The notes beneath the pieces are model-generated. The model worked only from the letters and a program-made list of their open reading frames with translations, was not told the DNA's origin and ran no database searches. Shown one piece after another: positions 1,731 through 30,825 of a DNA stretch of 32,056 bases (positions within the stretch are counted from its first letter, which is position 1; each line of letters opens with the position of its first letter). The DNA comes from Pseudofrankia coriaricola (lineage in GTDB: Bacteria; Actinomycetota; Actinomycetes; Frankiales; Frankiaceae), in contig NZ_MBLO01000220.1 of NCBI RefSeq assembly GCF_001854805.1, forward strand, positions 162,833-194,888, read 5' to 3'. Position numbers and translations under genes: made by a program.

Positions 1731-1879
1731 GCGTCCGGGCGTGTGCTCGGGGCGCGGCCCCGTGGAAAAGCCCGTGCAAATCCCGGTGCCGGCGGCGGGT
1801 CCACGGGGCTACCGTCAGACCTTCCCGTCGGCCTCGCGGCACAGGTCGACCTCCGTGCCCTGCCAGAAGGAACCTCACG

Positions 1880-2044
1880 ATGCGGGTCATCGTCACGCTG
1901 CACCGCGCCGCCGACGGCCGCCCCCATGGCGACGTCCAGCTCGACGGCGACCAGGACACCCACCCGTTCTCCGGGTGGATGGAGCTCCTCCAGCTCCTCG
2001 AGCAGGCAGCCGCGCCGGCACCGCCCCCTGGCACCGCCGGTTGA
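1880..2044 (+). CDS. Small hypothetical protein (54 aa)
   Basis: This is a short ORF that starts ATG and ends TGA. A good ribosome binding site, AGAAGGA, lies about 8 nt upstream (1864-1870). The protein begins MRVIVTLHRAADGRPHGDVQ, then has a predicted short helix around FSGWMELLQLLEQAA and a Pro/Ala-rich end. The layout suggests a small beta-alpha fold with no membrane segment and no cysteines. The RBS and the clean protein-like composition make it a likely real gene, but I do not recognise the family. It lies 149 bp after the LuxR gene on the same strand and might be co-transcribed with it. Confidence 0.6.
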   Translation: MRVIVTLHRAADGRPHGDVQLDGDQDTHPFSGWMELLQLLEQAAAPAPPPGTAG

Positions 2045-2134
2045 CGGGACGGTCCGCGCCGGTGGTCGCGCCGCGGGCGGCGAACGACGCGGTCGCGGCA
2101 CGACGTCGACTCACGAGCGACCGGTGGCTGCTTT

Positions 2135-2448
2135 CCCACCGGCGGCCGGACAGCCGCCGCGAGTTGCTATGTTCCTGGAATTTTGTTTTCGTGTTGCTGG
2201 CACGGTCGCGGTCGATTCGAGGTTCGCCGGTCGCGTGCCGTTCTGTGCTACACAGTAGGATCAGGGCGCGTCGGGGTGGACGCCATCTTGACCGGTAGCG
2301 AGAGTCGACGGAAACGAGGGTCGGCAGTACCGCGTCCACCGGACGTCGCATTCTCCGTCCGCACGAATACTTTCGCCGGCGCCGGTGGGCGCGGCGCCCG
2401 CAGACCACGCCGCGCGAGAGCCGGCGGCCTCGTCGCACGGGGGGCACC
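2135..2448. repeat. Upstream part of the tandem duplication, copy A (promoter region of the kinase-less FN3 protein)
   Basis: This gene-free stretch is similar to 4093-4404. Shared blocks include CCACCGGCGGCCG, CGAGTTGCT followed by an AT-richer patch (2161-2200 against 4135-4180), GCGCGTCGGGGTG, a CACCATCTTG-like block, a CGCATTCT..GTCCG block and GCACGGGGGGCA just before the start. The similarity runs directly into the coding sequence, so the duplication took the promoter region with it. The T-rich patch at 2177-2200 stands out in this GC-rich DNA and is a plausible promoter location, but I could not fix a -10/-35 pair. The stretch 2045-2134 shows nothing recognisable. Confidence 0.65.
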
Positions 2449-3852
2449 ATGAGCGAGACCCAGTCCGAAGCCACGACGATCGCGGACGCCGCCGCCGGGG
2501 ACCTCGACTCCGCTTCCACGGGCCAGGACACCGCTCAGGAGGAGCCTGCCGCCGCCGAGGCGGTGACTCCAGGCGGCGAGTCCGCTCAGACGGACGCGGA
2601 CGTCGCGGGAGCGGTTTCCGCGAAGGCGGTCGTGGCTGAGGCGGAGCCTGTCCTCGCGGACGGGGCCAGCCCAGTTGTCGATGACGCCGAAGTACCGGCG
2701 CCGAGCGAGGACCTGGCCACCGATCTGTCCGGGCTGGAGCCGATCGCCGCGTGGCAGGGCAGTGGCTCCTCCCCACCCTTCGCCGGACGGCGCGGCCCGC
2801 GCCGCGGCACGGCATGGTTCGCGTCTGGCCGGTCGAAGCGCCCTGTGCTGCCGGTGCCGGCGATCATCACGCTTGTCGTTCTGGTGACACTGGCCGGCGT
2901 CACGGTTCCCCTCGCCCTGCGCACCGCCGACCGGAACGCCTATCTGACATCCAGCGGACCTGACGTCACCGATGGCGGCGCGACCGTGGCAGCTCCGCCG
3001 GGCAGGGCCGAGGACGCGGCCGGCGGGTCGGTCACCCTCCCGGGACAGAGTTCTGCACGGTCCGGCCAGAGCCCGCCCAGCACCGGGGCCACCGTCCGGG
3101 GAAGCGGCACCTCGCCGTCCGGTGGCGGCACGCGCCAGCCGAACGGCCCGGGTACCCAGCAGCCCGGTGGCAACGGCGGCTCTGACGGCTCGGGCGTGGG
3201 CGCCAACCCCCAGAGCAACGCGGGCGCCCCGGCGCCGCAGGTGCCCGGTGCGCCAGGGATGCAGGCCCGCCCGGTGCCGGGCGGCGTCGAGGTGACGATC
3301 ACCGAGCCGACGGGTGGCGGGATCGCGTCGAGCTACGTCGTCACGGCCGACCCGGGCGGCACCACGTCGCTGTCAGCTCCGGGCACGGTCACCATTCAGG
3401 TCGACAGCTGCGCGCAGACGGCTGTCAGCGCACGCGCCACCAATGCCGCCGGCACGTCGGCCGCGGCCAGTCGCACGCTCGTCGGCTGCGTCGCGCCCTC
3501 AGTGCCTCGCAACGTCACTCTGACCAAGCTGCCGCCACAGGCGAGCGATCCCACCGGGCACAACCTGGTGTCCTGGACCGCTCCGACGGAGACGGGCGGC
3601 ACGGGTGTGGCGGTCGACTACATCGTCCGGGTCTACATATCGTCGGAAAACGTCACCTCCGTGAGTAGCTATACGGTGACGGGTACCAGCTATCTGCGGA
3701 GCAACGCGTCCGGTCGCGACCCATACATCAAGATCACCGTCGCGGCGCGCAATCCCGCTGGTGAAAGCGCTGAGGTAGTCGTTTACCGCGGCAGCGGCCC
3801 CACGGACGTCACCAGCGTGACGCCCCTGACTCCGGGCCCACCCGAAGCCTGA
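2449..3852 (+). CDS. Membrane-anchored FN3-repeat protein, kinase-less paralog of the downstream Ser/Thr kinase
   Basis: This 467-residue protein has four parts. Residues 1-88 are Ala/Glu/Asp-rich. A basic stretch (RRGPRR..GRSKRP) is followed by one hydrophobic segment at about 133-156 (IITLVVLVTLAGVTVPLAL). A long Gly/Ser/Pro/Gln linker covers about 165-262. Two fibronectin-III-like modules cover about 264-445; the second contains VPRNVTL, VSWTAP and VDYIVRVYI. The positive charges before the membrane segment predict a cytoplasmic N-terminus and an outside C-terminus. Every part aligns with the next gene except its kinase domain, which is absent here (junction near nt 2690-2720). It probably acts as a cell-surface binding or adaptor protein. 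A regulatory partner or decoy for the kinase is inference. The start is ATG preceded by a GGGGGG run. Confidence 0.8.
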   Translation: MSETQSEATTIADAAAGDLDSASTGQDTAQEEPAAAEAVTPGGESAQTDADVAGAVSAKAVVAEAEPVLADGASPVVDDAEVPAPSEDLATDLSGLEPIAAWQGSGSSPPFAGRRGPRRGTAWFASGRSKRPVLPVPAIITLVVLVTLAGVTVPLALRTADRNAYLTSSGPDVTDGGATVAAPPGRAEDAAGGSVTLPGQSSARSGQSPPSTGATVRGSGTSPSGGGTRQPNGPGTQQPGGNGGSDGSGVGANPQSNAGAPAPQVPGAPGMQARPVPGGVEVTITEPTGGGIASSYVVTADPGGTTSLSAPGTVTIQVDSCAQTAVSARATNAAGTSAAASRTLVGCVAPSVPRNVTLTKLPPQASDPTGHNLVSWTAPTETGGTGVAVDYIVRVYISSENVTSVSSYTVTGTSYLRSNASGRDPYIKITVAARNPAGESAEVVVYRGSGPTDVTSVTPLTPGPPEA

Positions 3853-4404
3853 GATACCGAACATCCAATCCGTTGTGATCGCCCAGCACCGACGCCGCTG
3901 TCGCGGAGCCCGGCGCCGACCGCGGCTGTCAACGACCCGGCGCGGATCGCCCACCAGCCCGCCATGACGTCGATCAACACCGTGCCCTGGATCGACCTGC
4001 GCGCACAGGCGAACGGCAGTAACCTCGCCGTCCCCGGACGGAGGCCACCCGCCGGGCTGCACCTGTCGGCCGCCCGCGGCCGGTCCCGGGGCCACCGGCG
4101 GCCGTCGGCCTGGACACAGGCGAACACCCATCTCGAGTTGCTGTTTTCTTGGATTGTTGTTTCCGCGTTGCCAACATGGCCGTGAGCGCCCCGTGGTGCG
4201 CCGTTCCTGCGCCGTTCCGTGCTGCACACTGAGATCCGAGCGCGTCGGGGTGCGGACACCATCTTGGCTGGAAACGGGGGCGACGGGGGTCGCGTTTGCC
4301 GGACGCCGCATTCTTCGTCCGTAAACATACTTTTCCAGTGCCGGTGGGTGGCGCACGCAGGAGGCGCCACATGGAGCCGGCGGTCTGGTTGCACGGGGGG
4401 CAAG
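3853..4404. repeat. Intergenic region between the paralogs; 4093-4404 is copy B of the duplicated upstream region
   Basis: This is 552 bp without a convincing gene. The first 240 bp show nothing I recognise. From about 4093 it repeats the DNA upstream of the first paralog with small indels; the distance from the shared GAGTTG block to the start position is 270 bp here and 288 bp in copy A. An AT-richer patch at 4135-4180 matches the one at 2161-2200. A GTG at 4219 opens a frame into the kinase, but the 62 codons it adds lie in DNA that is noncoding in copy A. Confidence 0.6.
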
Positions 4405-6972
4405 ATTAACGAGATCCAGTCCGAAGCCGCGACAAGCACGGACGCCGCCGCGGACGTCGCCGCCACGGGCGCGGGCTCCGACCAGGCGGATGCCGCCTCT
4501 ATGAAGGCGGAAACCGCCGACACAGACGTGGTCCTGTCGGACGCGGTTTTCGAGAAGGCGGCCGCCGCGGAGGCGGAACCCGTCCCCGCGGACAGCGCCG
4601 GTCCTGTTATAGATGACGCCGAGACCTCCGCCGAGCCTGGGTTTTCGCTGCGTGGCGGGGATCCGGAGCTGATCGGCAGGTACCGCGTTCTGCGGCTGCT
4701 CGGCGAGGGCGGGATGGGGTCGGTGTTCCTGGGCGAGTCGCCCGAGGGGCGCCGGGTCGCGGTGAAGGTGATCCGCTCCGACTACGCGCGGGTGCCCGAG
4801 TTCCGGACGCGGTTCGGCCGGGAGACGGCGCACGTGCGGCGGGTGGCCAAGTTCTGCACCGCGGAGGTGGTCGACGCCGACCCGGACGCGAACCTCCCCT
4901 ACCTGGTCACCGAGTTCATCCCCGGGCCGACTCTGGGGGAGGCCGTCGCCGCGGACGGCCCGCTGGCCGAGAGCGACCTGGAGCGCCTCGGCGTCAGCAT
5001 GGCCGCGGCGTTGACCGCGATCCACGCGGCCGGCATCGCGCACCGCGACCTGAAGCCGTCGAACGTGCTACTCGGGCCGTCCGGGCCACGGGTCATCGAC
5101 TTCGGCATCGCCTCGACGCTCGGCGCGACGACGATGGTCAGCCAGGACGTGACCCGGATCGGCACCCCCGCCTACATGGCCCCCGAGCAGATCCGTGGCG
5201 GCAAGGTGGGAGCGGCCGCCGACATCTTCGCGTGGGCCGGCGTGATGCTCTACGCCGCCACCGGCCGGCCCCCGTTCGGCGAGGCCGAGCCAATCGCGCT
5301 GCTCTACCGGGTCATCCATGACGACCCGGACCTGACCGGCGTGCCGGACGGCATCGTCGAGTTGGTGCGCCAGGCGTTCCGCAAGAACCCCGACGAACGC
5401 CCCACCGCGACCGGCCTGCTGCTGCGCCTGCTCGGCGACGCGGAACCCATAGCCGACCAGCGCTCGGCCGTCGCTCGCGCCCTCGACGGCTGGCACGCCG
5501 GCGCGGCGGGCGTCGGCGTCGGCGTCGGCGTCGGCCAGAGCATGGGCGGTTCTGGTGACACCGCGATGGCGGTCGGCGCCGGCTCCGCCGCGGCGGCGCC
5601 TGGGGGCATACGGCTCACGAAGCCCGCGACGGGGCCGGGGACCGCGCGACGGGCGGTCTCGGCCGACGCGCCGGCCGGCGTGGGCACGGGCGCGACCCTG
5701 TCCGACTACCCGACGTTGGTCGCCGGGTCCGCGCCGTCCGGCGCGTCTGGCGCCGCGGCGCCGTACGACGATCCGGCCGGCGACCTGTCCGGGCTGGAGC
5801 CAGTCGTCGCGCTGCCCGGAGGCGGGGAGCCGCCATCTCTTACGAGACGGCGTGGGTCACGCGTCCTGCCACGCCGGGGAGCCGCCCAGAGGTCGGCGGA
5901 CCGGTCGAAGCGCCTCGCGCCGGCGATCGTCGCGCTTGTCGCGATGGTGGCGCTGGCCGGCATCACCGTCCCGCTCGCCCTGCGCGCCTCCGACCGCGAC
6001 ACCTACCTGACGTCCGACGGGCAGGACGTCACCAACGGCGCGACCGTCGACGCGCCGTCGGGCAAGGACAGGAACGCCGGGGGCGACGGGGGCACGACCG
6101 GAGGCGGCGACGTCTCGTCGCCGGGCGGTGTGGACGCGATCGGCGCCGCGGGGCGGGGCCCGGTACGCACGGGACAGAGCCGGCCGGCCGGCGGGACCAC
6201 CTCAGGCCGAGGCGGTGCCCCGTCCTCAGGCGGCAGCGCGGGCCAGTCAGATGGCTCGGACCAGTCAAACGACTCAGGCCAGTCAAATGGCGTCCAGCCG
6301 GGCGGAGGCACCGGGAACACGGGCGGCACGAGCACCGCCCCGCAAGGCGATGCACCGACGCTACAACCACCCGGCACGCCGGGTATGCGGGTCGTATCGG
6401 TGTCCGGCGGTGTGCAGGTGACGATCAGGGCGCCCACCAGTGGCGGCGCGCCGACGACCTACGTCATCACCGCCGACCCGGGTGGCACCAAGTCGCTGCC
6501 TTCCCCCGGAACTGTCACCATCCAGGTCGACGGCTGCGCCCGTTCCACGGTCAGCGCCCGCGCCAGCAACGCCGCAGGCACGTCTCCCACCGCGACGGCC
6601 GCGGCCCTTGGATGTGTTACTCCCTCCGCCCCAAGTAACGTCACGATCCGCGCCGACTCATACAAGTCGTACACCGCCAGATGGAGCCCGGCGGCTCGGA
6701 CCGGCGGCACCGGGGTGGTCGTCGACTATGTTGTCCGGATCTACCTCTCGCACAGCATGTCGAGTTGGGTGAGCGAAATCATCATGACGGGGACGAGTTA
6801 TACGTTTGAATACAACGCCGGCAACGTCCTTAACAAGGTCACGATCGCGACGCGTAACCCAGCCGGGCAGAGCGCGGAGGTCACCGCCTATAGGGAACCT
6901 TCGCCAGACCCCAGCACTACTCCGCCCGACCCGTCGACGTCGGCTCCAGCACCATCGACGTCCAAGACCTGA
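4405..6972 (+). CDS. Transmembrane Ser/Thr protein kinase with FN3-like extracellular modules
   Basis: Counting from the ATT at 4405 gives 855 residues. After an acidic Ala-rich stretch (1-88), the Hanks-type kinase spans about 90-345. It has the glycine loop GEGGMGSV, VAVK (K121), HRDLKPSN (D215), DFG (D232) and APE (259-261), so all catalytic residues are present. A VG-rich, Ala-rich linker leads to one membrane segment (about 504-527), a Gly/Ser/Gln linker and two FN3-like modules. The kinase faces the cytoplasm and the FN3 part lies outside; it should phosphorylate Ser/Thr targets in response to an external signal. No PASTA repeats are present. The start is uncertain. The paralog's ATG aligns with ATT 4405; in-frame alternatives are GTG 4219, GTG 4348 and ATG 4501. 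It converges with the acyl-CoA synthetase 97 bp away. Confidence 0.88.
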   Translation: MNEIQSEAATSTDAAADVAATGAGSDQADAASMKAETADTDVVLSDAVFEKAAAAEAEPVPADSAGPVIDDAETSAEPGFSLRGGDPELIGRYRVLRLLGEGGMGSVFLGESPEGRRVAVKVIRSDYARVPEFRTRFGRETAHVRRVAKFCTAEVVDADPDANLPYLVTEFIPGPTLGEAVAADGPLAESDLERLGVSMAAALTAIHAAGIAHRDLKPSNVLLGPSGPRVIDFGIASTLGATTMVSQDVTRIGTPAYMAPEQIRGGKVGAAADIFAWAGVMLYAATGRPPFGEAEPIALLYRVIHDDPDLTGVPDGIVELVRQAFRKNPDERPTATGLLLRLLGDAEPIADQRSAVARALDGWHAGAAGVGVGVGVGQSMGGSGDTAMAVGAGSAAAAPGGIRLTKPATGPGTARRAVSADAPAGVGTGATLSDYPTLVAGSAPSGASGAAAPYDDPAGDLSGLEPVVALPGGGEPPSLTRRRGSRVLPRRGAAQRSADRSKRLAPAIVALVAMVALAGITVPLALRASDRDTYLTSDGQDVTNGATVDAPSGKDRNAGGDGGTTGGGDVSSPGGVDAIGAAGRGPVRTGQSRPAGGTTSGRGGAPSSGGSAGQSDGSDQSNDSGQSNGVQPGGGTGNTGGTSTAPQGDAPTLQPPGTPGMRVVSVSGGVQVTIRAPTSGGAPTTYVITADPGGTKSLPSPGTVTIQVDGCARSTVSARASNAAGTSPTATAAALGCVTPSAPSNVTIRADSYKSYTARWSPAARTGGTGVVVDYVVRIYLSHSMSSWVSEIIMTGTSYTFEYNAGNVLNKVTIATRNPAGQSAEVTAYREPSPDPSTTPPDPSTSAPAPSTSKT
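5509..5532 (+). repeat. Four 6-bp GGCGTC repeats inside the kinase gene
   Basis: Four perfect tandem GGCGTC units encode alternating Gly-Val in the linker just after the kinase domain. The repeat is in frame, so copy-number changes would alter linker length without breaking the gene. It is absent from the kinase-less paralog, which lacks this part of the protein. Confidence 0.85.
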
Positions 6973-7069
6973 CGACCAGCCCCATAAATGGCTGTCGGCC
7001 GGCCTGCTCGCCGAGGACCGCGCGGTCTGGAGCCGTGAATCCCATGGCGCACCGCGGGTACCGACGGCG

Positions 7070-8647
7070 CTATTTCAGGGAGCCGTCGGCGATCAGGGCG
7101 TGCAGGCCGCGGCGGTTGAGCTTGCCGGAGGGCAGCGTGGGGATCTCGGCGCTGGTCGCGAGGATCCAACGGGTGGGGACCTTGTAGCTGGAGAGCTGCT
7201 CGCGGGCGCGGGCCGCGAGCGACTCCACGTCGACATCGACGGCCTCGGACGCCGAGACGACGACGGCACACACCTCCTCGCCGCGGGACGGGTGGTCGAC
7301 GCCGAGGACGACGCACTGCGCGACGTCGTCGAAGGTCTCGATCACGGCCTGGACCTCCAGCGGCGAGACGTTGGCGCCGGCGGCCTTGATGAGCTCGCTG
7401 GTCCGGCCGACGTAGAACAGGCGCGGGTCGCCGTTCTTGCGGTAGACCTTGTCGCCGGTGTGGTACCAGCCGTCCGCGTCGAAGACGTCGGCGCGTTCGC
7501 GCTTGTTGTAGCCGGCCATCACACCGATGCCACGGATGAGCAGCTCGCCCATGGTGCCTGTCGGCGCCGGGCCGCCGTCGTCGAGGACGATTCGGGTTTC
7601 GGTGAACGCGAAGCTGCCGGCGGTCTCGGTGAGGCTGCGGTGGGTCGGGAAACCGTCCGGAACGTTGTTCATCGCGAGGTCCAGCGGGCCGCTCGTCAGC
7701 ATGGGGGCGCTGCTCAGGTCCCGGTCTGGGAACGTCGGGTGTTCACGCAGCTGCTGGGTGAAAGCCGGCCAGCCGACGATTCCGTTGGCCCGTTCGCGCT
7801 CGGCCAGGTCGAGCGCGGCCCCGGCTTCCAGCCGCGGGAGCACCAGCAGGGTGGCCGGCTCGTGCAGCGCGCCGGTCGCGGCCAGCACGCCGCCTATCCA
7901 GAAGAACGGCATCGCGCAGAGGACCTTCGGCGCCCAGTCGATGCCAGTGAGGCCGCGGATGGCGGCGGACCAGGTGGAGGTCTGGCGGACGACCGTGCCG
8001 TGGGTATGCAGCACGCCTTTCGGGTCCGCGGTCGAGCCCGAGGTGTGGATCATGATTGCCAGATCCGCCGGGGTGACCTCGGCCTCGACAGCCGAGAGAA
8101 TCTCGGGGCCGACCAGGGTCGGGCCCTCCTCACCCCAGGAGTCCGCGTCCCAGGCATCTGCCCACGGCCGGTCGGACGCCGAGGTGAGCACGATACGGCG
8201 CAGGTAGGGCGCCGAAGGCATTTGAAGGCGCCCGGGCTCCTGCCCGGACAGGCCGGGAAGCGCCGCCTCAAGCCGTTCGGCCACGTCGATCCTGAGCACC
8301 TGGGTGGGCGCGACCAGCAGGCCGACGTCGGCCAGGCGCAGCACCTTCCCGATCTCGGCCGGGGTGTACAGCGTGCTGAGCGGCACGGCGACCGCGCCTA
8401 TGCGGGAGGCGGCGAGCCACCAGGTGACCCACTCGGTGTCGTTGGTGAAGAACAGGCCGACCCGCGAGCCCTTGCCCATCCCGGCGGCGAGCAGCCGGCG
8501 CGCGGCGAGCGCGGAACGCCGATCCGCCTCGGCGTAGGTGAGGCGGTCGGTCGGCGTGACGACGTACGGCGTCTCGCCGAACTCGCGCACCGCGCGCCCG
8601 AGCAGCTCGGGAATGGTCGGCCGCGGCGGCGGCCCCGATGACACCAT
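7070..8647 (-). CDS. AMP-dependent acyl-CoA synthetase / ligase (ANL superfamily)
   Basis: The 525-residue protein has the ANL adenylation motifs in order. The P-loop is HTSGSTADPKG at about 201-211. LTETAG replaces the usual YGxTE. GWYHTGD and GRTSELIKAAGANVSPLEV form the hinge and A8 region, and LPSGKLNR near the end supplies the catalytic lysine (about K509). It should activate a carboxylic acid with ATP to an acyl-adenylate and transfer it to CoA; the acid is not deducible. Length fits fatty- or aryl-acid CoA ligases. The ATG at 8647 is chosen because GGGGAGAG lies about 8 nt upstream; the open frame extends much further but without coding character. It is divergent from the DUF1353 gene (267 bp gap). 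Confidence 0.92.
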   Translation of the reverse strand: MVSSGPPPRPTIPELLGRAVREFGETPYVVTPTDRLTYAEADRRSALAARRLLAAGMGKGSRVGLFFTNDTEWVTWWLAASRIGAVAVPLSTLYTPAEIGKVLRLADVGLLVAPTQVLRIDVAERLEAALPGLSGQEPGRLQMPSAPYLRRIVLTSASDRPWADAWDADSWGEEGPTLVGPEILSAVEAEVTPADLAIMIHTSGSTADPKGVLHTHGTVVRQTSTWSAAIRGLTGIDWAPKVLCAMPFFWIGGVLAATGALHEPATLLVLPRLEAGAALDLAERERANGIVGWPAFTQQLREHPTFPDRDLSSAPMLTSGPLDLAMNNVPDGFPTHRSLTETAGSFAFTETRIVLDDGGPAPTGTMGELLIRGIGVMAGYNKRERADVFDADGWYHTGDKVYRKNGDPRLFYVGRTSELIKAAGANVSPLEVQAVIETFDDVAQCVVLGVDHPSRGEEVCAVVVSASEAVDVDVESLAARAREQLSSYKVPTRWILATSAEIPTLPSGKLNRRGLHALIADGSLK

Positions 8648-13635: not shown

Positions 13636-13779
13636 CGCTGGTCCCAGCGTCGTCCGGGCTCGTCGCGGTCAGGATGCCGGCTGGAGACGCGCCGCTTCGC
13701 GGGTGCCGGATGGATGGTTGGCCGACCGCCGCCCGGGCAGACCTGACCGGGGGCATGGTGGTGACGCGATGGTGACGTG

Positions 13780-14976
13780 ATGATGACGACGTTTGGGCCG
13801 CGCGCGAAGGTGATCGCACCGGACAGGAAGGTCACAGACCTGCTCGACGTGCTACGCCTGCACATGGACATGGATGTCGCGGTCCTCGGCATGTGGGACG
13901 ACGACCTGCTGGTCGTCCAGGTCATCGCCGGCGACGGAAAGAGATTCAGCCTGGCGCCCGGCACCACCATCCGGCACTGCAGGGATCTCAACCTCGGGGT
14001 CGAGAACGGTTCTTTCCCGCCCATGTCCCCCGATGTCTCCCAGGACCCGCGGACGAGGAACGCGACCATTCTGGCCTGTCTCAAGGTCAGCGCCTACGCG
14101 ATGACAGCTCTCACCGACCCGGCTGGCGAGTCCTACGGGATGCTGCTCTGCATGGCCCGTCGGCCTCGACCGGCGCAGCAGGAACGCCACAGCCAGTTCC
14201 TGCGCCTGACGGCCGCGTTCCTCGGCGACTCCCTGCTCGACCTCCGGCACATGTGGGAGGCACGCAGCCAGGTGTGGTCGACGATCAGCGATCTCATCGA
14301 CGCCGGCGGCCCGAGAATCGTGTACCAGCCCATCGTCCGGCTCGACACGGGCGGCGTCACCGCGGTCGAGGCACTGGCGCGTTTCCCCAACCGGTGCTGC
14401 GGTCGGCCTCACAACACGGAGGACTGGTTCCTCGATGCCCATCTGGTCGGGCTGTCCGTGGAACTGGAAATGGTCGCGATCAGGCGTGCCGTCGCCGTGC
14501 TCCCCCAGCTCACCGATGACATGAAGCTCGCGGTCAACGCCTCGCCCAGTACGATCGCGGCGGGCCTGGTCGACTTCGTCCACGACCTGCCCGGCCACGA
14601 CCGCCTGACCATCGAGATCACCGAACACGAGAACTCTCTCGCCAGGCCGGACGCCATGCGGGCCATCCGCCACCTCCACGAACTCGGCATCCATATCGCG
14701 ATCGACGACACCGGCACCGGATACTCCGGCCTGGAACAGCTCGTCAAGCTCCGCCCGGACATCATCAAGCTCGACCACATCCTCACCCGCGGCATCAACC
14801 GCGACCCCGCTCGTCGCGCTCTCGCCGCCGGCCTGGTCCAGCTGGCCCGCGAGATCGACGGAACGGTTGTCGCCGAGGGGGTCGAGACTTCCGCTGAACG
14901 CGACGCCATAGTGAGCGCCGGCATTTCATACGGCCAGGGATACCTGCTCGGGAAACCAGCGCCCACCCTGCCGTGA
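13780..14976 (+). CDS. GAF-like sensor + EAL domain c-di-GMP phosphodiesterase
   Basis: Of 398 residues, about 10-155 form a GAF-like sensor (DLLDVLRLHMDMDVAVLGMW and similar) and about 170-395 an EAL domain. Catalytic positions are present: EAL with E197, N253 (AVNAS), E279 (EITE), D309-D310 (IDDTGTGYSGL), K330 (IIKLD), E366 (VAEGVET) and Q386 (GQGYLLGKP). It should therefore hydrolyse cyclic di-GMP to pGpG in the cytoplasm, controlled by a ligand or redox signal at the GAF part. No GGDEF domain is present in it or in the window. The DDFGTGYSSL loop reads DDTGTGYSGL, a mild variation. Start choices are GTG 13777, ATG 13780 and ATG 13783; the RBS is weak. Confidence 0.9.
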   Translation: MMTTFGPRAKVIAPDRKVTDLLDVLRLHMDMDVAVLGMWDDDLLVVQVIAGDGKRFSLAPGTTIRHCRDLNLGVENGSFPPMSPDVSQDPRTRNATILACLKVSAYAMTALTDPAGESYGMLLCMARRPRPAQQERHSQFLRLTAAFLGDSLLDLRHMWEARSQVWSTISDLIDAGGPRIVYQPIVRLDTGGVTAVEALARFPNRCCGRPHNTEDWFLDAHLVGLSVELEMVAIRRAVAVLPQLTDDMKLAVNASPSTIAAGLVDFVHDLPGHDRLTIEITEHENSLARPDAMRAIRHLHELGIHIAIDDTGTGYSGLEQLVKLRPDIIKLDHILTRGINRDPARRALAAGLVQLAREIDGTVVAEGVETSAERDAIVSAGISYGQGYLLGKPAPTLP

Positions 14977-17749: not shown

Positions 17750-19129
17750 ATGGGGAACCTGGGGCGGGCCAAGCGGCCCGCGACGGAGGACAGGCCGGTA
17801 CTCGGCGACCCGGTCGGCGACGTGGCGGCCCCCAGGCGTGACGCCCCCGTCGCCCGGGCAAGACCACCCACCGCCGACGAGCTGATCTCGTCGCTGTCGC
17901 AGGCACTGGTGCGGTCTCGCCGGCTGCTGGCGGCCACCAGCGCCCTGGGCACGGTCCTGACCGTCGACGACGTGGCCGACGTGGCCTTCCGGACCGCCGC
18001 CGCGGACGCCGCCGTGACCTTCGCCGGCTTCGTCCTGTTTGGCGAGGACGACTCCCCCGACCGCGTCCTGGCCTGGCCCCGGCTTACCACGCCGGTGTTC
18101 ACCGACGTCTGGGTGCGCGCCCGCAACCCCGGCCCGGCCGCCACCGGTGAGGTCGTGCGGACCGGGCAGCCACGCTTCGACCCGACGCGGGTGGGCTACC
18201 TCAACGACTATCCGGACCGCCGCGCGGTCTTCGCCGCGATCGGTATCGATGCGTCGGCGACCCTGCCGCTCACCGTGTCCGGCCGCATCATCGGGGTCCT
18301 GTCCCTGGCCTGGTCCGGGCCGCGTTCCTTCAACGAGGAGGAACGCGCGTACCTGCGCACGCTCGCCGGCGTCTATGCCCAGGCGATCGAACGGGCCAGG
18401 TTGCATGAACGGCAGCGGTCCGTCGTGGAGACGCTGCAACGCGCGATTCTCCCGCGGACGTTGCCCGAGCTGCCCGGGATGGAGCTCGTCGCCCGATATC
18501 TGCCGGCCGGCCGTGACGTGGAGGTCGGCGGCGACTGGTACGACGCCGTCGTCCGTCCGGACGGCTCCGTCACCCTGGTGGTCGGCGACGTCGGCGGCCA
18601 CGGGCTGCCCGCCGTCTCGGCCATGGCCGAGCTGCGGCACGCCGCCCGCGCGTACGCGATCGAGGGACGCGCTCCGGCCGCCATCACCACGCGGCTGTCC
18701 GCCCACCTGCTCGCCGCGCAGGACGACACCCTCGCCACCGCGATCGTCGCGACGGTCGAGCCGAACACCGGCCGGCTCACCTGGTCGTGTGCCGGTCACC
18801 CGCCGCCGCTGCTGCTCACCAGCACCGACGCCCGCTACCTCGACGACGTGCACGGCCCGATGCTCGGCGTCGTGCCCGGGTACGACTACGGTCAGCGAAC
18901 CATGACCCTGCCGCCCGCGAGCAGCCTCCTGCTCTACAGCGACGGGCTGGTGGAGCGCCGAGGCACCTCCCTCACCGACCGGCTGGCGACCCTCGCCGCG
19001 GCCGCGGCGCAGGGGCCGAACGCCGACGCCCCCGGCCTGGACGCGCTCTGCGACCGGCTCCTCGCCGACGTCGCCGGCCCCTCGACCCGCGAGGACGACC
19101 TCTGCCTGCTCGCCGTCCGCGGCTCCTGA
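17750..19129 (+). CDS. GAF-SpoIIE (PP2C-type) serine phosphatase
   Basis: Of 459 residues, about 60-225 are a GAF-like sensor (TFAGFVLFGED, SGRIIGVLSLAWSGPRSFNEEERAYL) and about 240-457 a PP2C/SpoIIE phosphatase. The metal-binding aspartates are visible in VGGDWYDA (D262) and GDVGGHGLPA (D280). SDGLVE and a final REDDLCLLAVR complete the set. Such proteins dephosphorylate anti-sigma-factor antagonists, controlling alternative sigma factors. The start is ATG with GGAAGG about 7 nt upstream. A sigma-B-like -10 (GGGTAT, 17693-17698) lies 52 bp upstream, but no clear -35 matches it. No kinase or antagonist gene lies next to it. Confidence 0.93.
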   Translation: MGNLGRAKRPATEDRPVLGDPVGDVAAPRRDAPVARARPPTADELISSLSQALVRSRRLLAATSALGTVLTVDDVADVAFRTAAADAAVTFAGFVLFGEDDSPDRVLAWPRLTTPVFTDVWVRARNPGPAATGEVVRTGQPRFDPTRVGYLNDYPDRRAVFAAIGIDASATLPLTVSGRIIGVLSLAWSGPRSFNEEERAYLRTLAGVYAQAIERARLHERQRSVVETLQRAILPRTLPELPGMELVARYLPAGRDVEVGGDWYDAVVRPDGSVTLVVGDVGGHGLPAVSAMAELRHAARAYAIEGRAPAAITTRLSAHLLAAQDDTLATAIVATVEPNTGRLTWSCAGHPPPLLLTSTDARYLDDVHGPMLGVVPGYDYGQRTMTLPPASSLLLYSDGLVERRGTSLTDRLATLAAAAAQGPNADAPGLDALCDRLLADVAGPSTREDDLCLLAVRGS

Positions 19130-29079: not shown

Positions 29080-30825
29080 GTGACCCGTGATGGCGCCGTT
29101 GAACGCCCACGCCCGGATCGTTCCCATGCCGGCGAGGGACCGGCGCCGGAGGTCGGCACCGGGGTGAGCCGACCGCATCGGCGTTCTCTCCTGCTTGGCG
29201 GGCTCGGCCTCGGGGGCGCGGCGCTGGCCGCGGCGGGCCTGGCTGCCTGCGGCGGCTCCGATGACGCCACGCGGCCCGCGGCCCCGACCCTGCGTGCGCC
29301 CACTCCCATTCCCGGAGTGACGGACGGGGTCTTCGGCCTCGGCGTGGCGAGCGGCGATCCGCTGCCCGACGGCGTGATCCTCTGGACCCGCCTCGCGCCG
29401 AAGCCCACCGAGGGCGGTGGGATGCCGGCCCGCGACATCCCCGTCGACTGGCAGATCGCCACCGACACGGACTTCCGCTCAGTGGTGCGGGCCGGCACGG
29501 AGACCGCGCGGGCGGCGCTCGCGCACTCCGTCCACGTCGACGTCCATGGCCTCGAGCCGGGGCGGGACTACTACTACCGTTTCCGCGCCGGCACGGTGCA
29601 GAGCCCGGTCGGCCGCACCCGGACGGCGGCGGCGCCGGGATCCGGCCCGGAAGCGGCCGGCGGGTCGCTGGCGTTCGCGCTCGTGTCCTGCCAGGACTTC
29701 CAGAACGGCTACTGGCCGGCGTTCGACGCGATCGCCGCGGACCGGCCGGACCTCGTCGTGCACGTCGGCGACTACATCTACGAGTACGACCCGGACAGCA
29801 AGTTCCCGGACCGGCGGCACACCACCCCGCAGACCCCCGGCCTCGACCAGCTCCAGACCCTCGCCGACTACCGCAACCGCTACGGCCAGTACAAGGCGGA
29901 CCCGGCGTTGCAGGCCGCCCACCTGGCCGCGCCCTGGGTCGTCACCTGGGACGACCACGAGGTCGAGAACAACTACGCGAGCCTCACCGACGAGCTCGGC
30001 GACACCGGCCCACGGCACCAGGACCCCGCGGCGTTCGCCCGCCAGCGCGCCGCCGCCTACCAGGCGTACTACGAGCACATGCCGATCCGCGCCAGGCTGA
30101 ACCCAGGCTCCCCCGATTTCCAGATCTACCGCCGGCTCGCGTTCGGCAGCCTGGCGACGCTCAACGTCATGGACACCCGGCAGTACCGCACGCCCGCGCC
30201 GGGCAGCTCTCCGAGCGCCATTGGCGCCGCCGCCCTGGGCGGCGCCAACGCGGGCGGCACGATGGCCGGCGCCGAGCAGGAGCGGTGGCTACGGACGGGG
30301 CTGGATGCCTCCCGCACCCGGTGGAACCTGATAGCGCAGCAGACGATGATGGCGCAGCTCGACGGCCAGCTGCCGGGCGGGGACGGGCAGACGCTGACGA
30401 ACCTCGACCAGAACGACGGCTACCGCCCCTACCGGCGCCGTGTGCTGGCCGGCGTGCGCGACAGCAAGGCCCGCAACCCGGTCGTGCTGTCCGGCGACCT
30501 GCACTGCGCGTGGGTGAACGACCTGCGCGTCGACTTCGACCAGCCAGAGACGCCCGTCGTCGCCACCGAGTTCGTCTGTACCTCGATCAGCTCGGCGTTC
30601 TTCCTCATCAGCGACGACTTCGTCCGGGACAACAACGCCCGCTTCAACCCGCACGTCCGGTACTTCCGCGGCGACCGCCGCGGCTACACCCGCATCCGCG
30701 TGACACCCGAGGAATGCCGCGCCGACCTGCGGATCGTCGCCGACCTCTCCCGCCGCGACTCCCCGGTCACCACCGACACGACCTGGGTTATCGAGGACGG
30801 CCGCCCCGGCGCCCAACCGGCCTGA
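29080..30825 (+). CDS. phoD: PhoD-like alkaline phosphatase, Tat-exported lipoprotein
   Basis: The 581-residue protein has a twin-arginine signal (PHRRSLLLGG, R34-R35), a hydrophobic core and lipobox LAAC with C57, so it should be exported folded and lipid-anchored outside the membrane. A PhoD N-terminal domain follows (GVASGDPLPDGVILWTRLAP). The metallophosphatase domain has SCQDFQNGYWPAF, HVGDYIYEYD, WDDHEVENNY and LSGDLHCAWVND, which supply the metal ligands. It should release phosphate from phosphodiesters and monoesters, useful under phosphate limitation. Start choices are GTG 29080 (used; possibly leaderless) and GTG 29164, close to the Tat motif. No Pho box was identified with confidence. 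Confidence 0.92.
   Translation: MTRDGAVERPRPDRSHAGEGPAPEVGTGVSRPHRRSLLLGGLGLGGAALAAAGLAACGGSDDATRPAAPTLRAPTPIPGVTDGVFGLGVASGDPLPDGVILWTRLAPKPTEGGGMPARDIPVDWQIATDTDFRSVVRAGTETARAALAHSVHVDVHGLEPGRDYYYRFRAGTVQSPVGRTRTAAAPGSGPEAAGGSLAFALVSCQDFQNGYWPAFDAIAADRPDLVVHVGDYIYEYDPDSKFPDRRHTTPQTPGLDQLQTLADYRNRYGQYKADPALQAAHLAAPWVVTWDDHEVENNYASLTDELGDTGPRHQDPAAFARQRAAAYQAYYEHMPIRARLNPGSPDFQIYRRLAFGSLATLNVMDTRQYRTPAPGSSPSAIGAAALGGANAGGTMAGAEQERWLRTGLDASRTRWNLIAQQTMMAQLDGQLPGGDGQTLTNLDQNDGYRPYRRRVLAGVRDSKARNPVVLSGDLHCAWVNDLRVDFDQPETPVVATEFVCTSISSAFFLISDDFVRDNNARFNPHVRYFRGDRRGYTRIRVTPEECRADLRIVADLSRRDSPVTTDTTWVIEDGRPGAQPA

Follow-up and report, generated by a model that had tools for sequence, protein, structure and literature searches.

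A kinase-less membrane paralogue beside a predicted FN3 receptor kinase with a variable distal tip in Pseudofrankia coriaricola

The 11.2 Mb genome of Pseudofrankia coriaricola (G000) encodes two adjacent membrane proteins, here called A and B, which share most of their parts except that B carries a protein kinase domain and A does not. The genes lie in a 32,056-nucleotide stretch (G000:C220:162833-194888), referred to as the window. This layout raises the question of what a kinase-less copy does beside a receptor kinase. The answer put forward here, which is tentative, is that B would be a receptor kinase of AfsK-like type whose variable tip serves in recognition, with A as a kinase-less modulator acting beside it. 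The comparison covers eight Pseudofrankia genomes (G000-G007), two of which, G001 and G004, carry the pair in addition to G000. Both proteins are ordered as an acidic N-tail, a DLSGLEP block, a basic stretch, a membrane segment (one hydrophobic segment per protein exceeds the threshold applied), a low-complexity linker and two outer modules, with the kinase of B preceding the DLSGLEP block. The features are as follows, all on the plus strand:

2147..2448, +, upstream region of A, duplicated along with the gene; 70% identical to 4121-4404, mean column identity 73% in a six-way alignment
2340..2361, +, inverted repeat CGGACG-N10-CGTCCG 5' of A; precedes all six genes in the three genomes, with one mismatch in A of G001
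2449..3852, +, gene A, predicted kinase-less membrane protein of 467 aa; open reading frame (ORF) with orthologues in G001 and G004
2722..2742, +, DLSGLEP block of A; preceded by Thr (ATDLSGLEP) in 3/3 orthologues
2863..2919, +, predicted membrane segment of A, aa 139-157; hydropathy 2.55
3247..3495, +, inner module of A, FN3-1 (FN3-like); 63% aa identity to B, PDB profile match E 0.076
3496..3789, +, membrane-distal FN3 tip of A, FN3-2; profile A5 matches titin FN3 at 3.4e-28, 82-89% aa identity among three orthologues
4121..4404, +, upstream region of B, copy of 2147-2448; DNA alignment and direct repeats
4300..4321, +, inverted repeat CGGACG-N10-CGTCCG 5' of B; pattern search of window and genome
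4405..6972, +, gene B, predicted FN3 receptor kinase of 855 aa counted from ATT; the mechanical ORF is 4219-6972, 917 aa
4681..5418, +, protein kinase domain of B, Pfam PF00069; E 8.5e-36, residues 155-400 of the 917-aa ORF, with Lys, HRD, DFG and APE motifs
5782..5802, +, DLSGLEP block of B; DLSGLES in G001, ELSGLEP in G004
5926..5982, +, predicted membrane segment of B, aa 508-526 from 4405; hydropathy 2.59
6373..6621, +, inner module of B, FN3-1, kept between genomes; 82-85% DNA and 83-87% aa identity among orthologues
6622..6909, +, membrane-distal FN3 tip of B, FN3-2, replaced or hyperdiverged between genomes; 49-57% DNA and 34-47% aa identity among orthologues, GC 0.61

A and B are paralogous along their whole common length, upstream DNA included. 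With masking and composition correction off, BLASTP aligns the two proteins at 321 bits (E 1e-104, 45% identity over 477 columns); with both on, the FN3 part is found at 2.2e-29, the membrane part at 2.9e-6 and the N-tail at 0.11. At the DNA level, identity is 70% over 562 columns from 2147 and 76% over 170 and 215 columns in the membrane and FN3 regions, and six families of direct repeats link the genes. The original prediction of a tandem pair sharing the N-terminus, DLSGLEP block, basic stretch, membrane segment and linker is borne out by these protein and DNA alignments. The stretch absent from A comprises the kinase and the linker behind it, about 4640 to 5770, close to the ~4625-5775 first proposed for the missing kinase cassette, and A has no Pfam or NCBIfam match. 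The residue before DLSGLEP is Thr in 3/3 A proteins and Gly in 3/3 B proteins. A matching ectodomain had also been proposed, and this stands for the inner module (63% aa identity) but not for the distal module, which is just 44-47% identical. Simple ligand sharing through a fully matching ectodomain finds no support, as the distal module of B differs from that of A and varies among genomes.

By score and motifs, B is predicted to be a Hanks-type Ser/Thr protein kinase. It matches PF00069 at 124.1 bits, against a curated cut-off of 31.7, its G001 orthologue scores 119.6, and the motifs VAVKV, HRDLKPSN, DFGIA and APEQ are present in B of both genomes. Of 35 PADLOC matches of B, the 25 listed all lie over the kinase domain, with one extending to residue 640. 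The distal module is assigned to FN3 by profile similarity. Its profile, A5, matches titin (3.4e-28) and other FN3-bearing chains (77 matches at 0.1, the best 60 of which were inspected), although as single sequences the module scores 13.6 bits in B, below the Pfam cut-off of 25, and has no Pfam match in A. The inner module taken alone is weakly suggested to be FN3-like: fibronectin is its best structure-profile match, at a weak E of 0.076, and it has no confident profile match to the distal module. A profile of both modules matches the two-FN3 prolactin receptor over both (residues 2-149, 3e-7).

The origin of the pair can be approached through a second protein with the same FN3 tandem, found in all eight genus genomes. 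In seven it is a long kinase-FN3 protein, named K-long in this analysis (G000:C25 and orthologues; split over two overlapping frames in G005). In G007 the part read is C-terminal and sits at a contig start, and a kinase fragment from a different contig of that genome clusters with K-long. Like B, K-long has an N-terminal kinase (~61% identical to that of B), a C-terminal FN3 tandem and, by eye, a basic-flanked membrane segment. Unlike B, it has a linker of ~800-900 aa from kinase to membrane segment and no second FN3 match in the seven ~10 kb stretches read around it. The B kinase falls beside K-long with support of 87/92 among 16 hand-chosen kinases and 84/77 in a 30-kinase tree, for which 20 more kinases were added. 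In the FN3-1 tree A and B join (98/98; A of G004, where the module is absent, was excluded). As the B kinase groups, with modest support, with the genus-wide K-long, kinase loss in A is the likely direction of change, and of the two courses that had been suggested, a single duplication followed by loss or by gain of the kinase cassette, these trees support loss. The simplest history would run from a K-long-like ancestor to B, then to a duplication and the loss of the kinase in A. The species order is in conflict, with B of G001 and G004 together (92/84, 30-kinase tree) versus G000 with G001 (93/93, K-long FN3-2). A search of G000 with the B kinase returned 32 places at E 1e-60 or better, including B itself, a large AfsK-like set.

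The FN3 tandem is not confined to the genus. At 1e-10 its profile matches 15 of the 35 genomes that represent the order (and, identically, the family), and at 1e-20 at least 13 of 345 genomes of the class, all 13 in Frankiaceae; the class-wide count is a lower bound, with nine candidates scored per listed genome. Other proteins of the family join the tandem to propeller-like fronts (a by-eye naming, without a Pfam match) or to DUF6777, and there are further FN3 kinases besides B and K-long. One of these adjoins the pair in G004 (L028:8038-10089, minus strand; Pfam fn3 E 1.4e-16, two stretches). PMC2877116 lists TPR, PASTA, WD40, GAF, PD40 and APH as the domains most often joined to kinases in prokaryotes, and its main text contains neither 'fibronectin' nor 'FN3'. 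Of the paired layout with FN3 ectodomains, which had been taken for undescribed in bacteria, the FN3-kinase fusion itself is not special, since FN3-tailed kinases are common across the genus. The kinase-less twin, unlike these kinases, is not ordinary here. Among the titles and abstract beginnings listed in the literature matches, none describes an FN3 receptor kinase of bacteria that has a kinase-less gene next to it, and such a description may still be in print.

The same adjacent pair had been expected in relatives, and a search with A recovered it in the same order in three of the eight genomes (G000, G001, G004). It was not found in the other five, several of which are drafts. In G001 the pair is flanked by an AMP-binding ligase on one side and, on the other, by a gene that is presumably purL. 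The ligase neighbour is present in the window, with a LuxR-type gene instead as left neighbour. In G002, G003 and G006 the pair is absent and purL and the ligase are ~1.4 kb apart; in G002 this gap contains a 407-aa ORF, in G003 a pair of short ones, presumably HTH and PIN proteins. No ligase match was obtained at 1e-120 in G005 and G007. The pair is either a clade-specific gain or was lost elsewhere.

Similarity between A and B extends from points ~300 bp 5' of the start codons (2147 and 4121) to near the stop codons, so the duplicated unit includes upstream DNA; no match is seen between the 150-bp stretches that follow the two genes. The upstream regions of the six genes are 55-86% identical pairwise. 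The 22-base inverted-repeat consensus occurs exactly in G000 at the two pair sites only, with four further sites at three mismatches, and its reversed control pattern has one match in that genome. A looser form (any loop, one free base) adds one further window site, at 14648. As the window holds 32 inverted repeats of such size in all, the CGGACG-N10-CGTCCG type is itself not rare. An upstream RNA element is unsupported, with no Rfam match on the window and an unfavourable covariation term (+2.31) in the consensus fold, where 17 of 91 predicted pairs changed on both sides. A leader peptide, judged from sequence only, was likewise considered and is unsupported. Scans of 1750-7200 for sigma-70-like promoters and for terminators gave none of either.

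When the six gene starts are aligned, five are ATG behind a G-rich stretch and the sixth, B of the window, is ATT at 4405. This ATT is most likely the start of B, as both orthologues have ATG at its position and G004 has an in-frame stop 54 bp 5' of the aligned start. On the same grounds GTG 4219 was rejected. Weak initiation, a lesion or a sequencing error would each account for the ATT.

Selection was compared between the two genes using omega (NG86, without correction for GC bias or transitions) and codon-position counts. Gene A has no stops in its three orthologues, as the original prediction implied in setting it apart from a decaying pseudogene. Its indels are multiples of three in 4/4 (G000/G001), 9/9 (G000/G004) and 5/9 cases (G001/G004, where the remaining four sum to multiples of three), compared with 0/4, 0/4 and 1/4 in its upstream region for the same pairs. 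A plain pseudogene is rejected on these grounds. The best conserved part of A is its tip. For G000/G001, FN3-2 of A has an omega of 0.24 and codon-position counts of 9,4,17 (p 0.014, uncorrected, five segments). In the same pair of genomes the kinase and FN3-1 of B are under strong constraint, with an omega of 0.23 and counts of 16,5,38 for the kinase and counts of 9,3,30 for FN3-1. Segment by segment, these counts suggest that A keeps its tip and B keeps its kinase and stalk.

The tip of B behaves differently. Among B orthologues FN3-2 is 34-47% identical in amino acids versus 83-87% for FN3-1 in 3/3 pairs, and in DNA the tip is 49-57% identical versus 82-85%. Between G000 and G001 the tip has 1.38 differences per codon versus 0.56 in the rest of the C-terminal half (0/100000 permutations). 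Synonymous sites are also affected. At unchanged residues the same codon is used in 154/208 cases outside the tip and 16/42 inside it (p 1.6e-5), with p values of 0.012 and 0.0006 for the other two B pairs; when FN3-1 serves as the sole reference, p for the three pairs is 0.0015, 0.062 and 0.015. As synonymous sites have diverged too, replacement of the tip by a distant allele would fit better than amino-acid selection alone. Similarity to G001 returns near the stop codon, seen as a block from 6956 and as a 29-bp stretch at 83%. The GC content of the B tips is 0.61 and 0.595 versus 0.71; values of 0.64 and 0.67 in A tips and 0.65 in the B tip of G004 are also low, so that low GC belongs in part to the module as such. 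In G004 the tip of B resembles that of A, at 80-83% DNA identity to the three A tips versus 57% and 49% to the other B tips, which may reflect either the ancestral state or gene conversion. Among the 35 family genomes, the G000 and G001 B tips best match each other and A tips, at no more than 50% aa identity. K-long and propeller-like proteins were rejected as the source of these tips, as the best matches lie elsewhere.

Controls place this divergence in a wider setting. K-long, unlike B, conserves FN3-2 as well as FN3-1, its distal module being at most 0.03 below the inner one in 21/21 pairs (seven genomes; G007 left out). In the sole testable pair of A, identity rises from 0.80 in FN3-1 to 0.89 in FN3-2. 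A second kinase group shows a rise in three pairs and a drop of ~0.2 in three pairs with G005. Among ten pairs of propeller-like proteins one is level, one is down 0.07, those of G018 with G019 and G011 fall from ~0.82 to 0.53-0.55, and six between-genera pairs fall from 0.50-0.60 to 0.26-0.27. Fast distal modules are therefore not confined to B. The G018 case (L065:434-748, against G019 L060 and G011 L061) is a strongly diverged distal FN3 module that lies within an alignment spanning 4.8-4.9 kb at 82-85% identity. The protein has no kinase match, with a propeller-like front in G019, and its synonymous test is not significant (p 0.34, 0.19).

Taken as a receptor and its modulator, the pair could work as follows. 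B would be a single-pass Hanks-type receptor kinase with an AfsK-like kinase inside the cell and the FN3 tandem outside, and A a paralogue that arose when the entire gene was copied together with its upstream region and the copy then lost the kinase and linker in frame. The distal FN3 modules may bind something outside the cell. Receptor-type bacterial Ser/Thr kinases are activated by dimerisation and autophosphorylation, which suggests that B would signal when clustered through its outer part, the kinases phosphorylating each other upon ligand-driven clustering. Dimerisation-driven activation has been described for PknB (PMC7464533). A would sit in the membrane by the same anchor and juxtamembrane block and tune B. 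It could do so as a dominant negative that dilutes B dimers through mixed assembly, or by using its acidic tail and the conserved ATDLSGLEP block to serve B as a partner for docking or phosphorylation. The B tip would then be the changing, specificity-determining part and the A tip the constant one. This reading draws on the conserved A-B order in three genomes, the duplicated upstream region with its repeat, the preserved frame of A, the constraint on A FN3-2 and the B kinase, and the basic stretch and membrane segment retained in A.

Several points weigh against it. Interaction of A with B is inferred from sequence, and the difference between their tips weakens ligand sharing. The two genes lie 550 bp apart, each behind an upstream region of its own, an arrangement that does not imply co-transcription. 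Gene A is weakly constrained, with an omega of 0.63, 0.64 and 0.78 and an overall codon-position bias of p 0.22, 0.023 and 0.85 in the three pairs. Production of the kinase may be poor in two of the three genomes, given the ATT start in the window and a single-base frameshift in the kinase domain of G004 B (L028 about 6305-6320, both flanking frames open). The inner module has been lost from A of G004 (L028:4002-5318) by in-frame deletion, and FN3-2 is the only A segment with a codon-position p below 0.05 (G000/G001).

This last point, along with the survival of the distal module in the G004 protein that lost its inner one, also fits a different and more doubtful explanation, in which A has a job of its own as a membrane-anchored FN3 surface protein (adhesin, ligand display), no longer works with B and depends on its distal module alone. 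Genomes G019, G026 and G028, from other genera of the family, do encode FN3-tandem proteins with a different front and no kinase match in the same frame. The adjacency to B and common upstream sequence in 3/3 pair-bearing genomes argue against independence, as does the retention of the DLSGLEP block, basic stretch and membrane segment.

It is unlikely that the locus is simply decaying, as a duplication that lost kinase output by deletion in A and is now acquiring point lesions in B. The ATT start, the G004 frameshift, the lost module, the high omega of A and the presence of the pair in just three of eight genomes would all be expected of decay. However, the low omega and skewed codon-position counts of the B kinase and FN3-1 oppose it, the frame of A is kept, B of G001 is open from its ATG (with one ambiguous codon), and both B lesions may be sequencing errors. 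That A is mainly a donor of tip sequence, swapped into B by recombination, is highly improbable: the A-like G004 B tip and its same-residue codons, which agree with G004 A in 57/71 cases inside the tip compared with 50/83 outside it (p 0.008), form a single case that may be ancestral, and the G000 and G001 tips match no sampled A above 50% aa identity.

The modulator reading can be extended, with little confidence, to a strain-specific recognition device in which an exchangeable B tip is wired to a cytoplasmic kinase and the invariant tip of A provides a fixed partner or a set-point. Through a kinase whose distal FN3 tip varies, these filamentous actinobacteria would have a surface specificity that can change and is coupled to phosphorylation signalling. 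If true, tip divergence of the G018 type would make exchangeable FN3 tips general among Frankiaceae surface proteins. Bacterial receptor kinases are usually regarded as lone molecules, and a conserved kinase-less neighbour with the anchor of the receptor would be a bacterial parallel to plant receptor-like proteins that can be tested directly.

Other observations concern related and neighbouring genes. In G003 a DUF6777-FN3 tandem protein without a kinase (L067:4621-7059, minus strand) is possibly another kinase-less partner. Near it is a NERD-domain gene (L067:1691-3538, minus strand) with a kinase-like stretch just under the Pfam cut-off. Elsewhere in the window are an EAL domain protein (13777-14976), a GAF-SpoIIE phosphatase (17750-19129) and a PhoD-like phosphatase (29080-30825).

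Among known systems, AfsK of Streptomyces is the best NCBIfam match of the B kinase domain (NF053615, 233.5 bits). B falls far under the cut-off of 1300 bits and has its FN3 tandem where AfsK has a sensor part, presumably a PQQ-type propeller. The PASTA kinases PknB, PrkC and StkP resemble B in combining a kinase, a membrane segment and repeated outer modules, but B scores 196.1 bits against the NF033483 cut-off of 450 and no PASTA domain is among its Pfam matches. The polymorphic receptor TraA of myxobacteria is not known to have a kinase. TraA is like B in that one outer domain varies strongly between strains, and unlike it in that specificity was shown by allele replacement, compared with three sequences from three species for B (PMC3820747). 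A, in turn, resembles plant receptor-like proteins, which stand beside receptor-like kinases, and the BAMBI-type TGF-beta pseudoreceptor, in being a kinase-less membrane paralogue of a receptor kinase. These are unrelated eukaryotic proteins for which interaction with the kinase is known; for A and B it is proposed here. A nonetheless has the layout of such a partner, with the same anchor and a common outer part but no kinase, and with a distal module 44-47% identical to that of B.

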